Shown here: one piece after another, positions 3,448 to 31,681 of the stretch | Layout: every line of letters starts with the position of its first letter | How positions within the stretch are numbered: position 1 is the stretch's first letter | Source: Bifidobacterium choladohabitans | GTDB taxonomy: Bacteria; Actinomycetota; Actinomycetes; Actinomycetales; Bifidobacteriaceae | NCBI RefSeq assembly: GCF_016102005.1 | Contig: NZ_JACFPL010000001.1 | Coordinates: 248,001 to 312,000 of the forward strand | DNA length: 64,000 bases | Reading direction: 5' to 3' | Position numbers and translations under genes: made by a program | Notes under the pieces: generated by a model | What the model was told of the DNA's origin: nothing | Databases searched by the model: none | Seen by the model: the letters and a program-made list of their open reading frames with translations, nothing else

Positions 3448-4503
3448 CTATTGTGCGGTCTCTTGAACCCGACTTTCCGAGCGCAGATGACGGGCACGGG
3501 TCAGATTGACCACGCTGTGTCGGCTGACCAGTCGAGTTGGCATGACCACATGCCGCTGGAACTCCTTGCCTTGGCGTGCATCAAGAATCATTCCCACCGC
3601 CATCCTGGCCATCAAATCAAATGGCTGGTCCACCGTGGTAAGTGAAGGCATCAGATAAGAGGATGGATAGACGTTGTCGAATCCGACCACAGACAGGTCC
3701 CGCCCGGGCTCCAGTCCACGTTCGCGCGCTGCTCTGTAGATATTGACGGCTGTCAAGTCGTTGCATGCCAGAATCGCAGTCGGACGATGAGCACGGTCCA
3801 GCAGATCACAGGCAGCTTGGTACCCTCTGTCAGGCAGATAGTCTCCCTGCTGAACCATACCCGACGGCAGGCTGGCACCGATGGCTGCCAGTGCTGCTCG
3901 GTATCCTGCAAGTCTGGCTTGCGCGGATTGCACATTCGCCGGTCCAGCGATGACGCCTATGCACCGGTGTCCGGCATCCAGAAGACATTTGGCCGCTTGG
4001 TATCCGCCAGTCCAATTGTCGAGCGTTATGCTCATGTCCTCATCGCTGACCAAGTCCACCGGATCGACCGCCACCAAGGGGATACCCCTTGCTTTGAGCA
4101 CGTTCTTGCCCTCCTGGTCTATGGAGGACATCTGAGTGATCACACCCAGCGGGTTTCGATCAATGATCCCCCTCAGACATTCCTCGGCACGCCGCTGGTG
4201 GTCAGTCTGTGTCACCGTCAGAGCCAGACCGGCATCCAAAGCCCACTTTGAGGCATAGCGTATCATCTCGATGGTGCCATTGTTGGCGATATAATCCACC
4301 ACAAGTTCAATGGTCTGGGCGATTTTGGTACTGACGAGCGGATGCGCATAGCCCTGATCGGCTAAAGCCTTTTCGACTCTCCGACGGGTTTTTGCCGCCA
4401 CACCCGGTCGACCGTTAATCACCTTGGAGACGGTCGACGCTGAGATGCCGAGCTGCTCGGCTATAGCGCCGACGTGCGGATTGCCGGGTTCCTGTCTGGC
4501 CAT
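3448..4503 (-). CDS. LacI-family transcriptional regulator, candidate L-fucose operon repressor
   Basis: DNA-binding repressor of the LacI/GalR family. The N-terminus carries the helix-turn-helix IAEQLGISASTVSKVINGR and hinge helix (KTRRRVEKALADQGY), followed by a periplasmic-binding-protein-like effector domain with the usual ILACNDLTA and SVVGFDN segments. Three in-frame ATGs (4518, 4509, 4503) precede it; the 4503 start is preferred because GAAAGGA lies 5-6 bases upstream. It is divergent from the fucose operon with 150 bases between them, so it most likely controls that operon. The effector (L-fucose or a pathway intermediate) is inference. Confidence 0.9.
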   Translation of the reverse strand: MARQEPGNPHVGAIAEQLGISASTVSKVINGRPGVAAKTRRRVEKALADQGYAHPLVSTKIAQTIELVVDYIANNGTIEMIRYASKWALDAGLALTVTQTDHQRRAEECLRGIIDRNPLGVITQMSSIDQEGKNVLKARGIPLVAVDPVDLVSDEDMSITLDNWTGGYQAAKCLLDAGHRCIGVIAGPANVQSAQARLAGYRAALAAIGASLPSGMVQQGDYLPDRGYQAACDLLDRAHRPTAILACNDLTAVNIYRAARERGLEPGRDLSVVGFDNVYPSSYLMPSLTTVDQPFDLMARMAVGMILDARQGKEFQRHVVMPTRLVSRHSVVNLTRARHLRSESRVQETAQ

Positions 4504-27442: not shown

Positions 27443-28867
27443 TCAGTAATGAACGTATTGGTAGTTGCCTGCCCCATAGACCGTTTCATAGGTAGGGAAG
27501 GATGCGAAGCCGGTGCCCCCTTCGGAGATGAGCACCGATCCATCCGAATTGACCCGCTCGACCACAGCCACGTGGCCATAGGTCCAGTTGGCGTTCCAAC
27601 GAGTGACCCGCTGGCCACGGGCGAATACCATGGCAGCACCGACATGGGGGGTGTTGTTGACCAGATAACCCAGACCACGTGCCGTATTGGCCCAATCAGC
27701 CCCATTGCCCATATAGGAACCCACAGGCAGAGCCAGCTGCGAGCGACGGATGTAGGCCCAGAGCGTGCATTGACGAGCGGGGTAGGCGTTACCTCCAACC
27801 CTGCTGTCGTAGCCAGTGCTATGGCCATAGCAGAATCCGGAACCTGAGGGACAACTGCCCGGCACTGCGTAATTCATGCCGGAGGCGCCGCCACCGTTGC
27901 CTCTGCCGCTATTGCCACCGCCGCCATTGTTTCTGGGCGGATTAGGCCGTGAATTCTGTGCTGGACGGGATCCGCCGCCATTGCTGATCTGCTGGGCTCC
28001 TCCGGCATGCGGGTCGGCGCTGCCGCCCGGATTGCCGGTGTTCAGAGAGTCGATCATGGATTCGGTGGCCACGATATCTGCGGCTTCACGAGCCGACTGT
28101 GTGGTCAGGGCAGCCTTTTGGCTTTCCAGCTGCTTGCGGGCTGCGGTCCCCTGGTCACGCAGGGCCTGCAGGTGGTCCTGCTTGGCCTGGGCCGCCGCTA
28201 CAGCCTGCTGGGCTACCGCCTGCTGTTGATCGGCCTTGGCCTTCAGCGTGCTGATCTGCTCCTCGATAGCATCCAGACGCTGCTTCCGGTTCATGGAGGA
28301 GTTGAGGGTGTTGGCCGCATCATTGGCCGTATTGGCTTCGGACCTGGTCACAGCCGCATCGGACTGCATCTTGTCTACAAAGTCCTGGGTGCTTGAGGAC
28401 TTGGTCACCACATCCATGATCTGAGAAGTCTCGGACCCGTGGAAACTCTTTCTGGCCATCTGAGCCACGCCAGCCTTGGCATCGTCATAATCGAGGCCGG
28501 TCTGACGTATCTTGGCCTCCAGATCTGCGCGATCCTTGCGGGCCGCCTCCAGGCGATCGTTGGTGGCCTGGACCAGGCTGTCGGCCTGCTCGGCCTTCTG
28601 CTGGGCATCGATGGCACTCTGCTGCGCAGCCGGAATCTGATTGGAGGTCAGATCATCGAGACTTAGTATCTGGTTGGCAAGTTGGGCGCTGACACCAGCC
28701 AGCTTGCTCTTCAGGGCCGCGTGGTTCTGGACTTTCTGCTGGTAGCTGCTCCAGTCGGCACGCGCCGGTTCAGGCGCTACGGACAGTCCGAGGATTCCGC
28801 CGCCCAGCATCATGGCCAACGATCCGACGAGGCCGCAGATAGCCTCCCACCGTTTGGTACGATTCAT
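27443..28867 (-). CDS. Secreted coiled-coil peptidoglycan hydrolase with C-terminal CHAP domain (PcsB-like)
   Basis: Likely cell-separation hydrolase acting outside the membrane and activated by FtsEX, as for PcsB/RipC proteins. From the ATG at 28867 (GAGGG eight bases upstream): signal peptide ending near PARADW, a long Ala/Gln/Lys-rich coiled coil (about 40-270), a Gly/Asn/Pro-rich linker and a CHAP domain with catalytic Cys in RQCTLWAYIRR and His in YGHVAVVE. About 474 residues. Its position immediately after ftsX is the context that supports the role; cleavage specificity (amidase or endopeptidase) is not known. Confidence 0.9.
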   Translation of the reverse strand: MNRTKRWEAICGLVGSLAMMLGGGILGLSVAPEPARADWSSYQQKVQNHAALKSKLAGVSAQLANQILSLDDLTSNQIPAAQQSAIDAQQKAEQADSLVQATNDRLEAARKDRADLEAKIRQTGLDYDDAKAGVAQMARKSFHGSETSQIMDVVTKSSSTQDFVDKMQSDAAVTRSEANTANDAANTLNSSMNRKQRLDAIEEQISTLKAKADQQQAVAQQAVAAAQAKQDHLQALRDQGTAARKQLESQKAALTTQSAREAADIVATESMIDSLNTGNPGGSADPHAGGAQQISNGGGSRPAQNSRPNPPRNNGGGGNSGRGNGGGASGMNYAVPGSCPSGSGFCYGHSTGYDSRVGGNAYPARQCTLWAYIRRSQLALPVGSYMGNGADWANTARGLGYLVNNTPHVGAAMVFARGQRVTRWNANWTYGHVAVVERVNSDGSVLISEGGTGFASFPTYETVYGAGNYQYVHY

Positions 28868-28952
28868 GGTCAAGTCCCTCACTATCACTATCCATGCTAG
28901 TCATCATTATGACAGAGATTGCGCCCCAAATCGATTGGCCGGTCGCCACAAA

Positions 28953-29876
28953 TCAGGTCCGCAAATACCGTCGCAGGGAGATGGAGGAGGCCAGCGCGGA
29001 CAAGAGCATGGCCCCCAGAATCAAGGCTGGGGCTATGAGCAGGACCGTGGACTGGTCCACGTAGGGCATCCATTGGACCGTGCGAGCCAGCCAGTCGGTA
29101 ATGAAGAGCTTGACGATGGCGCTCAGGGCTCCGACAGCCAGAAGCGAACCCAGCAGGGAGGCCACCACGCCCTCCAGGATGAAGGGCAGCCGGATGGTCC
29201 AGTTGGAGGCTCCCACCAGTCTCATGATCTCCGTCTCGTTCCGACGTGCGGCAGCGCTCATTCTTATGGTGGTGCCGGTCAGCAGAATGGCTACAATCAC
29301 CATGACCACGGCCAGGACCAAGGTAACCGCCGTGGCCCTGTTGAGGATTTTGAAGACCGGATCGAATATCTGACGCTGGTCGGAGACCTCCTCCACCCCA
29401 TCGCGTCCGGACAGCACCTCGGAAACCACCTGGTACTTGGTCGGGTCCTTGAGCTTGAGCCGCAGGGAGCCCTGCATGTCCGCCGCGGTCATGGTCCTTC
29501 CCTCGTAGGTACCGTCAGGGTACTGCTTGAGGAAGGTGTTCTTGAAGAAGTCCTCACGGCTCTGATAGGTGATCTTGGCCACGGAGTCGCTCAGCTCGGT
29601 ATTGATGGTGTTCTCCAGCTTGACGATCTCGTCATTGGTGGGCGCCTTGCCGGTCGCACACGAGGCCGCCTGGCTGGTGCCGTCCGGGCAGAGCCAGACC
29701 ACCACCTCCACCTGGTCGTACCAGTCTCCCTTGGCCTTGCTGATCTGAGCCTGCATAAGGCCCGAGGCGCCTATGAAGAGAAAGGAGATGAAGGTGACCA
29801 GCATGACCGAGAGGATCATGGACCCATTGCGGCGCAGGTTGTCCCAGGTGCTGGAAAGGATGAACCGCAGTCTCAT
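28953..29876 (-). CDS. ftsX: Cell division protein FtsX
   Basis: Membrane half of the FtsEX complex that relays ATP hydrolysis to wall hydrolases. The 307-residue protein begins MRLRFILSSTWDNLRRNGSM, has a first membrane helix, a large extracellular loop (about 45-170), then three helices with GASNWTIRLPFILEGVVASLLGS, the standard FtsX core. Two cysteines in the loop (WLCPDG and ASCATG) could form an extracellular disulfide. Start overlaps the ftsE stop by 4 bases (ATGA). Confidence 0.95.
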   Translation of the reverse strand: MRLRFILSSTWDNLRRNGSMILSVMLVTFISFLFIGASGLMQAQISKAKGDWYDQVEVVVWLCPDGTSQAASCATGKAPTNDEIVKLENTINTELSDSVAKITYQSREDFFKNTFLKQYPDGTYEGRTMTAADMQGSLRLKLKDPTKYQVVSEVLSGRDGVEEVSDQRQIFDPVFKILNRATAVTLVLAVVMVIVAILLTGTTIRMSAAARRNETEIMRLVGASNWTIRLPFILEGVVASLLGSLLAVGALSAIVKLFITDWLARTVQWMPYVDQSTVLLIAPALILGAMLLSALASSISLRRYLRT

Positions 29877-31681
29877 CGTGCTGCCTTCTTCTTGTCATCA
29901 TGCTCATCCCGAGCCTGTGCGTCGTTCTCTCCATGGGACTTCCTGGCCGCCTTGGGGATTTCAGGCGGAGCAGGAGGAGCCGGCGGGGCTCCCATGGGCT
30001 CAGCATCATGATGATTTTCGCTCATTGATACCTTTTTATCGGCCCTGGCCTTGTTGGAGGACTGTTTTGAGGGTTTGGGGACGCCCTGCTTCTTCCGGCC
30101 TGCAGTCTGATCTGATTTGCCGGTCGGCTCTGCCGGGCTGGAGCCATCGGACTCCGAAGACTGATCGGGCCTCTTGAACCGTTGTTCAGAATCAGAGGAT
30201 TTGGCTGAAGAGCTCTTCAAGTGTGGACGTTCCTCGGTCTTTTCATTCTTCTGAGGCTGGCCATCACTGTCTCGTTTATCCCCCTGGCCACGGTCAATGC
30301 CTTGTTTTCCGTCCTGCTTCCGAAGGCCCGGATCTTCAGTCTGCCGATCCCGGGACCCGCTTTCAGCGGTCGCCTTGGGTTCGGCAACATCCGAACCAAA
30401 TGCGGAGTTCCGAGATTTTCTGGAGGCTGTACGTTCCACACGGGGATGATTGGCGGACTCATCACGATCAGTTCCTGCCTTGTCGCGGTCCCTGTCCCTG
30501 TCCCTTGATTGACCTGACCGACCCTGGCTGCCCTGGGCCGCAGGCCTGCGGAACCGCTCATCCGAGTCAGAGCCTTTGCTCCGATCGGGCTGCCCTGCAG
30601 CCGTGTCTTCGTGCTGGCTGGAATCTTCCTGGGCGGACTCAAGGCTGCCCAGACCCTTGCCCCAGGTCAGGGTGTCCTCCACCGAGGTGAAGACCTGTCC
30701 ATAACGCCCGGTTCTGCCCGAATGCATGGACTTGGCCAGACGCGCGATCCCCTCGTCGCCATACTGACCCTGGTTGACGGCCTGTGCAACCGCTTGGACC
30801 ACCTGCTTGGCCCCCTTGGTCCCATCCGCGATGGGCTCGGTAGCCGAGCTGTTCCCATCCTGCACAACGACCTGCACCGGACGGCGCCCTGCAACTCCAG
30901 CCTTACGCACACGATCCAGGGCATCGCCGTCAGCGGGATCCCCGATGGCATGATGGGAGCGTGCAGCCACTTCTGCATCGGGGAAGAAGCGAGAAGAATC
31001 ATAGGAGCCGTGGGCCTCATCACGCATGATCCGACCTGTATGCAGCTCCACCACACGCTTGCGCATGGAGTTGACGATCTCCTCGTTGTGGGTGGCCATG
31101 ACCACGGTGGTACCGGTCCTGTTGATGGCGTCCAGGACCTCCATGATGCCCAAGGAAGTGGTGGGATCAAGATTGCCGGTAGGCTCATCCGCCAGCAGAA
31201 TTTCCGGGTTGTTGACGTAGGCCCGGGCCAGAGCAACACGCTGGGCCTCGCCGCCGGAGAGCTCGTGGGGATAGTTGTGCTCCTTGCCGGTCAGTCCCAC
31301 AGTCTTGAGTACCTGGGGCACCAGGGTCTTGATGGTGGACCGACGGGCGCCGATGACCTCCAGCGTGAAGGCCACGTTCTGCCATACTGTCTTGTTGTTG
31401 AGCAGTTTGTAATCCTGGAATACAAAACCAATGGAACGCCGATAGCCGGGAATCTCGCGGTTGCGCAGACGTCGCAGGTCATTGCCGGCCACGCGGATCT
31501 CCCCCTCGGTGGCCTCCTCCTCGCGCAGGAGCAGACGCAGCAGAGTGGTCTTGCCCGACCCGCTGGCACCCACCAGAAAGACGAAATCCCCGCGATTGAC
31601 ATCCAGGCTGATGTTGTCCAAGGCTGGACGGGACCCCTTGGGGTAAATCTTGGTCACGCCCTTGAGCGAAATCAACGCCAT
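29873..31681 (-). CDS. ftsE: Cell division ATP-binding protein FtsE with a ~370-residue charged C-terminal tail
   Basis: ATPase of FtsEX. The core is a normal FtsE (1-225): Walker A GASGSGKTT (38-46), Q-loop GFVFQDYKLL, signature ELSGGEAQRVA (140-150), Walker B ILLADEPTGNLDP (161-173), H198. Known FtsE proteins are about 220-230 residues; here 602. The tail holds a conserved-looking stretch (about 265-345), then low-complexity Ser/Asp/Arg/Lys sequence with two near-identical decapeptides SDSDERFRRP (371-380) and SDSEQRFKRP (496-505), an RDRDRDRD run and a Pro-rich end PPAPPAPPEIP. The frame is unbroken and couples to ftsX, so the tail is coding. Confidence 0.94.
   Translation of the reverse strand: MALISLKGVTKIYPKGSRPALDNISLDVNRGDFVFLVGASGSGKTTLLRLLLREEEATEGEIRVAGNDLRRLRNREIPGYRRSIGFVFQDYKLLNNKTVWQNVAFTLEVIGARRSTIKTLVPQVLKTVGLTGKEHNYPHELSGGEAQRVALARAYVNNPEILLADEPTGNLDPTTSLGIMEVLDAINRTGTTVVMATHNEEIVNSMRKRVVELHTGRIMRDEAHGSYDSSRFFPDAEVAARSHHAIGDPADGDALDRVRKAGVAGRRPVQVVVQDGNSSATEPIADGTKGAKQVVQAVAQAVNQGQYGDEGIARLAKSMHSGRTGRYGQVFTSVEDTLTWGKGLGSLESAQEDSSQHEDTAAGQPDRSKGSDSDERFRRPAAQGSQGRSGQSRDRDRDRDKAGTDRDESANHPRVERTASRKSRNSAFGSDVAEPKATAESGSRDRQTEDPGLRKQDGKQGIDRGQGDKRDSDGQPQKNEKTEERPHLKSSSAKSSDSEQRFKRPDQSSESDGSSPAEPTGKSDQTAGRKKQGVPKPSKQSSNKARADKKVSMSENHHDAEPMGAPPAPPAPPEIPKAARKSHGENDAQARDEHDDKKKAAR

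Follow-up and report, generated by a model that had tools for sequence, protein, structure and literature searches.

FtsE of bifidobacteria carries a long C-terminal tail with conserved islands, a putative docking element

Background

What positions and switches FtsEX in FtsA-less bacteria is, to our knowledge, unsettled. In Bifidobacterium choladohabitans, the window analysed here (the whole stretch of 64,000 nucleotides) contains on its reverse strand, at 29873-31681, a frame that is open for 602 codons and encodes an FtsE of 602 residues. The question raised by this locus is what the part beyond the ATPase core is for.

The accessible portions of two papers describe that in E. coli the FtsZ tail is bound by FtsE and FtsA is bound by FtsX (PMC7343993; PMC11627006), and the accessible part of a review lists actinobacteria as lacking FtsA (PMC3989709). 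The C-terminal part of FtsE is not mentioned in the available excerpt of a paper on M. tuberculosis FtsEX (PMC10694151), and the "C-terminal extension" in the excerpt of another paper that includes FtsE and FtsX (PMC11466899) refers to TagG. In the titles and abstracts of the open-licence papers searched, nothing was found on an FtsE tail or on the function of bifidobacterial FtsEX.

Results

An FtsE of 602 residues coupled to FtsX

The TIGR02673 model of FtsE matched residues 3-217 with 272 bits, above its curated cut-off of 264.85, and what we take to be the P-loop, the LSGGE signature and the DEPTGNLD stretch were all intact in the core. Among solved chains the best match, 8idb_A (labelled FtsE, 230 residues, presumably from M. 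tuberculosis), aligned to residues 3-229 with 280 bits; because this alignment stops at residue 229 of 602, about 375 residues are extra. The E. coli FtsE chains in the structure table, as we take their source to be, were also short (about 222 residues). The protein thus exceeds the compact size of about 230 residues, but its membership in FtsE (TIGR02673) stands despite this length, short length being customary and not defining. The stop of ftsE and the start of ftsX share the sequence ATGA (29873-29876), the operon arrangement with ftsX that is looked for in FtsE. The closest named records were those of Bifidobacterium sp. 7101, B. asteroides and B. mellis.

A tail beyond the core and a four-base coupling to ftsX had been described in the initial annotation, and both were confirmed by the 602-codon frame, the TIGR02673 match and the ATGA overlap. 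The stop or frameshift near codon 225 that would have spoken against the tail was absent from the frame in the window and from the 12 other clade members compared. Among 109 FtsE loci, a break near this codon was found in one draft record, B. minimum LMG 11592 (L112), where the core and the part with C1, C2 and PPAPP lie in different reading frames at about 3660-4010; it is either a sequencing error or a real break. In another draft record (L076) the frame was broken between C2 and the Pro-rich part. Assembly error as the source of the tail was ruled out by the presence of C2 in 168 of 189 family genomes, and the extended FtsE tail is real.

Table 1. Features of the ftsE locus, with coordinates in the window
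Feature	Coordinates	Strand	Basis
CHAP-domain hydrolase gene, after ftsX	27443..28888	-	PF05257, E 6e-20, residues 366-457
ftsX	28953..29876	-	NF038346 FtsX_actino, 375.9 bits (cut-off 250); 4-base overlap with ftsE
FtsE low-complexity charged tail, residues 346-602	29876..30646	-	Composition; linker dN/dS 0.19-0.64
FtsE C3, APPAPPAPP, residues 565-573	29963..29989	-	PPxPP count; dN/dS
FtsE F motif copy 2, SDSEQRFKRP, residues 496-505	30167..30196	-	Clade-limited, decaying
FtsE F motif copy 1, SDSDERFRRP, residues 371-380	30542..30571	-	Kept in 13/13 clade members
FtsE C2, residues 307-345, YGDEGIARLAKSMHSGRTGRYGQVFTSVEDTLTWGKGLG	30647..30763	-	Invariant columns, family spread, dN/dS 0.033
FtsE variable linker A, residues 242-306	30764..30958	-	dN/dS 0.166; poor conservation in 85 relatives
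FtsE C1, residues 223-241, AHGSYDSSRFFPDAEVAAR	30959..31015	-	dN/dS 0.006; aligned relatives
FtsE ATPase core, residues 1-222	31016..31681	-	TIGR02673, 272 bits; invariant columns in 43 relatives

Neighbouring genes and division setting

The CHAP protein has a long N-terminal part before its domain. Of the 79 named loci, some of which are truncated at a contig end, 70 contained a similar CHAP domain. The CHAP gene fell short of the PcsB model (NF046104), with 50 bits where the cut-off is 450. It is likely that the CHAP protein is a wall hydrolase under FtsEX control. Mycobacterial FtsEX works with an NlpC/P60 enzyme, whereas bifidobacterial FtsEX may control a CHAP enzyme instead. A search that recovered FtsA from E. 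coli and B. subtilis as controls found it in none of 13 congeneric genomes; in six other genomes of the order, three had matches below the cut-off. The FtsZ and SepF genes are adjacent in this genome.

Four conserved islands in a variable tail

Comparison was based on 85 sequences, namely 93 distinct FtsE minus eight: five truncated at a contig end (L031, L049, L080, L081 and L092), the two with broken frames (L076 and L112) and a non-family Agrococcus sequence without C2 (L116). Some FtsE matches contained internal TGA codons (e.g., G102, G085, G082 and G148). In two loci that were inspected (L024 and L035), the frame was open through C2 and later ended in ATGA, the internal TGA arising because the match extended beyond the gene end.

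The tail consists of four conserved islands, C1, C2, the F motif and C3, amid a fast-evolving, disorder-like linker; the linkers cannot be aligned across the 85 sequences, and the islands stand out in them. C1 is a longer form of the GVYG-type FtsE ending seen in other families of the order. After C2 the protein becomes poor in order-promoting residues (W/C/F/I/Y/V/L/N), which make up 7% of residues 346-602 vs 38% of the core, and charge there is balanced (52 K/R vs 49 D/E). The length past C2 ranged from 13 to 274 residues (median 119), with Phe being scarce (67 in 11462 tail residues). Since FtsE stops 13 residues past C2 in Aeriscardovia aeriphila and 23 in Scardovia wiggsiae, these two species manage without the long low-complexity part.

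The Pro-rich end had been mentioned in the initial annotation; beyond that, we found PPxPP conserved in 74 of the 85 tails (mean 2.36 and maximum 8 in shuffled tails), starting 15-79 residues before the C-terminus. However, 11 of the 85 tails lacked PPxPP and, outside the B. asteroides clade, 58 of 72 had no strict F motif, so many species can dispense with these two motifs.

C2 as the strongest tail element

C2 is the strongest element of the tail, with the consensus DEGIARLAxSVHSGRTGRYGEAFxPVExTLTWGKGL and ten invariant columns among 43 relatives (L, G, G, F331, E, T, T, W340, G and G); its charge is close to neutral (5 K/R, 4 D/E). The more complex segment proposed earlier at residues 265-345 holds for 307-345, which is conserved, but not for its beginning, as 242-306 is a variable linker. 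The expectation that this segment would be kept while linkers vary was borne out by the near-invariance of C2 within it.

No match to C2 was obtained at 0.1 in PHROGs or NCBIfam profiles. Against Pfam one of 43 members matched, at 0.091 only, with no family assigned, and against PDB sequences one chain at 0.6 only, with no structure match; among other proteins of its own genome, the next matches had E 0.07 and 0.57. In viral contigs, 18 pattern matches were seen and none confirmed. In genome G084 a 43-codon frame directly after several stops (L184) resembles the middle of C2 (E 3.6e-4); this second C2 match in that genome was taken as chance or a decayed relic.

AlphaFold with the 43 relatives gave a mean pLDDT of 60.9 and a badly modelled core, the alignment comprising near relatives only; C2 appeared in this model as short helices with pLDDT near 40 and no confident placement. 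Modelling of C1-C2 alone gave a mean of 54.3. As weak evidence, such low confidence would argue neither for nor against C2 folding on binding.

The F motif

The decapeptides SDSDERFRRP and SDSEQRFKRP of the initial annotation are indeed present. The first belongs to a wider, Phe-centred motif, D-x-D-x-[RK]F[RK]xP (F motif). Outside the B. asteroides clade, 1) [RK]F[RK].?P occurred in 14 of 72 tails, against a mean of 0.08 and a maximum of 2 in 1000 shuffles, and 2) D-x-[DNE]-x-[RK]F[RK] occurred in 10 of these tails, Pseudoscardovia included, against a mean of 0.01 and a maximum of 1, these being counts on related sequences with patterns picked after inspection. At the level of sequence, they show that the F motif exceeds what composition alone would give, and say nothing on the number of origins.

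None of the 72 tails had two [RK]F[RK] (14 matches in 14 tails). Copy 2 was confined to the B. asteroides clade, where its Phe is gone in 3 of 13 members, that of copy 1 being kept in all 13. The earlier idea of a short linear motif gains from the recurrence of RF(R/K)RP beyond the clade, but a motif bound twice was ruled out by the single copy per tail elsewhere and the Phe loss in decaying copy 2.

Judged by eye against the FtsZ end of its own genome, DPGYLDIPDFLR, the F motif did not have the form of an FtsZ-type C-terminal docking peptide, and its origin as a copy of that end was set aside, the spacing being different. Among other proteins of the genome, a 13-window profile of the motif gave copy 1 (E 6.6e-4) and one 60-codon frame (E 2.1), copy 2 not being among the matches listed; a profile this short may miss others.

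Selection on the islands

For the 13 members of the B. asteroides clade (Nei-Gojobori, pooled pairs), dN/dS was 0.018 for the core, 0.006 for C1, 0.033 for C2 and 0.092 for C3 (residues 563-577), and 0.166, 0.189, 0.465 and 0.513 for the linkers, with 0.643 for the last 25 residues; all parts of FtsE were thus under 1. Synonymous differences were 0.23-0.40 per site throughout (pS 0.24-0.39 in C1, C2 and C3). The dN/dS of the islands is therefore far under that of the linkers at similar synonymous divergence, which argues for selection on the protein. The two F motifs with their flanks, taken as stretches of 16 residues, had values of 0.273 and 0.412, overall no tighter than linkers A and B; only their central residues are more constrained.

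Distribution inside and outside the family

FtsE was matched at 1e-85 in 173 of 189 Bifidobacteriaceae genomes and C2 at 0.001 in 168 of 189, covering 9 of 16 genera; the 168 are the 173 minus five genomes of genera g4 and g10. C2 lay inside ftsE in all 85 aligned proteins. The 21 family genomes without C2 comprise nine with FtsE (g4, g9, g10 and g16) and twelve with no FtsE match at 1e-45. FtsE of g4 has other tails, with 116-159 residues after position 225; four of them (L130, L131, L133 and L136) have recurring pieces of their own, e.g., RIPK and, close to the C-terminus, F-x-T/S-x-x-FDA. In g9 and g10 only 18-38 residues follow position 225, and in g16 the ftsE frame leaves the contig end. 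Two of the twelve genomes without FtsE are incomplete, and the other ten, from g12 and g13 (G174-G183), are small (0.6-1.4 Mb), also with no FtsX above the family cut-off; FtsEX seems to have been lost in these two genera.

C2 was matched at 0.01 in 32 of 396 genomes sampled from the order with the family included, and 31 of the 32 were family members; the remaining match (E 0.008, 19 positions) was taken as chance. C2 was not seen in 20 non-family FtsE, chosen among the longest open frames; 14 of them end 6-7 residues after position 225 with the GVYG-type ending, and the other six have tails of 40-137 residues. Five FtsE of other families of the order (L157, L158, L159, L169 and L176) have tails of 78-137 residues, several sharing a YGRREDILP start. 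Judging from these sequences, the C2 tail seems to have arisen inside Bifidobacteriaceae.

Discussion

We consider it somewhat probable that a lineage-specific putative docking tail tethers FtsEX to cytosolic division proteins where FtsA is not found. An ordinary FtsE ATPase would have gained a cytosolic docking tail within Bifidobacteriaceae, in which C1 would complete the ATPase fold, C2 would be a peptide that folds upon binding a partner protein, the F motif and PPxPP would serve as short linear motifs for extra, weaker contacts, and the linkers would act as tethers. The tail might thereby keep FtsEX at the site of division without FtsA and, via FtsX, the secreted CHAP hydrolase as well. 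The likely partner would be FtsZ, SepF or, through its cytosolic part, a membrane division protein. With FtsE contacting the FtsZ tail and FtsX contacting FtsA in E. coli, as given in the accessible part of the source (PMC7343993), a tether could plausibly sit on FtsE, and by analogy the cytosolic tail may be well placed to act as one. The docking reading draws on the family-wide retention of C2, its ten invariant columns and low dN/dS, and motifs occurring above the level of shuffled tails. Points against it are the two species in which FtsE ends soon after C2, the FtsE of g4, g9 and g10 that have none, the many tails that lack PPxPP or the strict F motif, and the break in B. minimum LMG 11592. 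For the interpretation of the tail given in the initial annotation, the tail itself, C2 and a recurring motif stood, and the double binding of that motif did not.

The main rival is regulation in cis, in which C2 would fold back, either onto the FtsE dimer or onto the side of FtsX that faces the cytosol, to gate ATP hydrolysis, the rest being spacer; C-terminal regulatory parts of some other ABC ATPases act in this way. C2 is constrained like the core (dN/dS 0.033 vs 0.018), has no match outside FtsE, and is joined to C1 by a link of 65 residues, long enough to reach back. However, AlphaFold put C2 nowhere on the core, albeit with a poor core and FtsX absent, the conserved F motif and PPxPP farther out are left unexplained, and in sister genera an FtsE lacking C2 operates with FtsX of the same family, so that we regard gating in cis as rather unlikely.

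Two other explanations were considered. The richness of the post-C2 part in Ser, Asp, Glu, Arg and Lys would suit a putative electrostatic or phosphorylation switch, with the tail binding nucleic acid or being a Ser/Thr kinase substrate, but residues 346-602 are balanced in charge and not strongly basic, the charged linkers change fastest (dN/dS 0.47-0.64) and the conserved part, C2, is nearly neutral, which makes such a switch improbable. Reading the tail as no more than an entropic spacer or the product of sequence drift, with C2 kept by a DNA-level overlap, or as an assembly error, appears very improbable. Unrelated FtsE tails do occur in 6 of the 20 non-family genomes, and frames are broken before C1 in L112 and between C2 and the Pro-rich part in L076, but C2 is present throughout most of the family, C1, C2 and C3 differ at synonymous sites as much as other parts do and yet keep their amino acids, and dN/dS is under 1 in every part; the conservation of C2 at the protein level contradicts this reading. 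A spacer role may apply to the linkers alone.

Docking through the tail can be compared with known systems. The actinobacterial FtsE 8idb_A shares the ATPase core and the order of ftsE then ftsX, but ends at 230 residues without C2, F motif or PPxPP. In E. coli, FtsE as the cytosolic link to the Z-ring corresponds to the role proposed here (PMC7343993, in the part available), whereas FtsX there also binds FtsA, a protein that went undetected in all 13 genomes searched from this genus. Streptococcal FtsEX-PcsB is similar in that FtsEX has beside it a gene for a CHAP protein whose N-terminal part is long, but the PcsB model scores the CHAP gene far below its cut-off and FtsX control is putative here. 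Other lineages of the order and g4 also have extra C-terminal residues past the FtsE core (40-137 and 116-159, respectively), but these tails are without C2 and, by eye, unrelated in sequence.

C2 represents a compact handle of 39 residues: nine genera and 168 genomes of the family retain it, and ten of its positions are invariant among the 43 sequences compared. We raise tentatively the idea that C2 is a new, lineage-specific division-docking element and that the FtsE C-terminus may be an evolvable port for tethers that actinobacterial lineages add on their own (C1, C2, the F motif and PPxPP in bifidobacteria, tails of 40-160 residues without relation to these elsewhere), rewiring the coupling of wall cutting to the ring without FtsA. 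If C2 is a docking site, it should lead to a bifidobacterial division partner; if it acts in cis, it would represent a new mode of regulating the FtsE ATPase.
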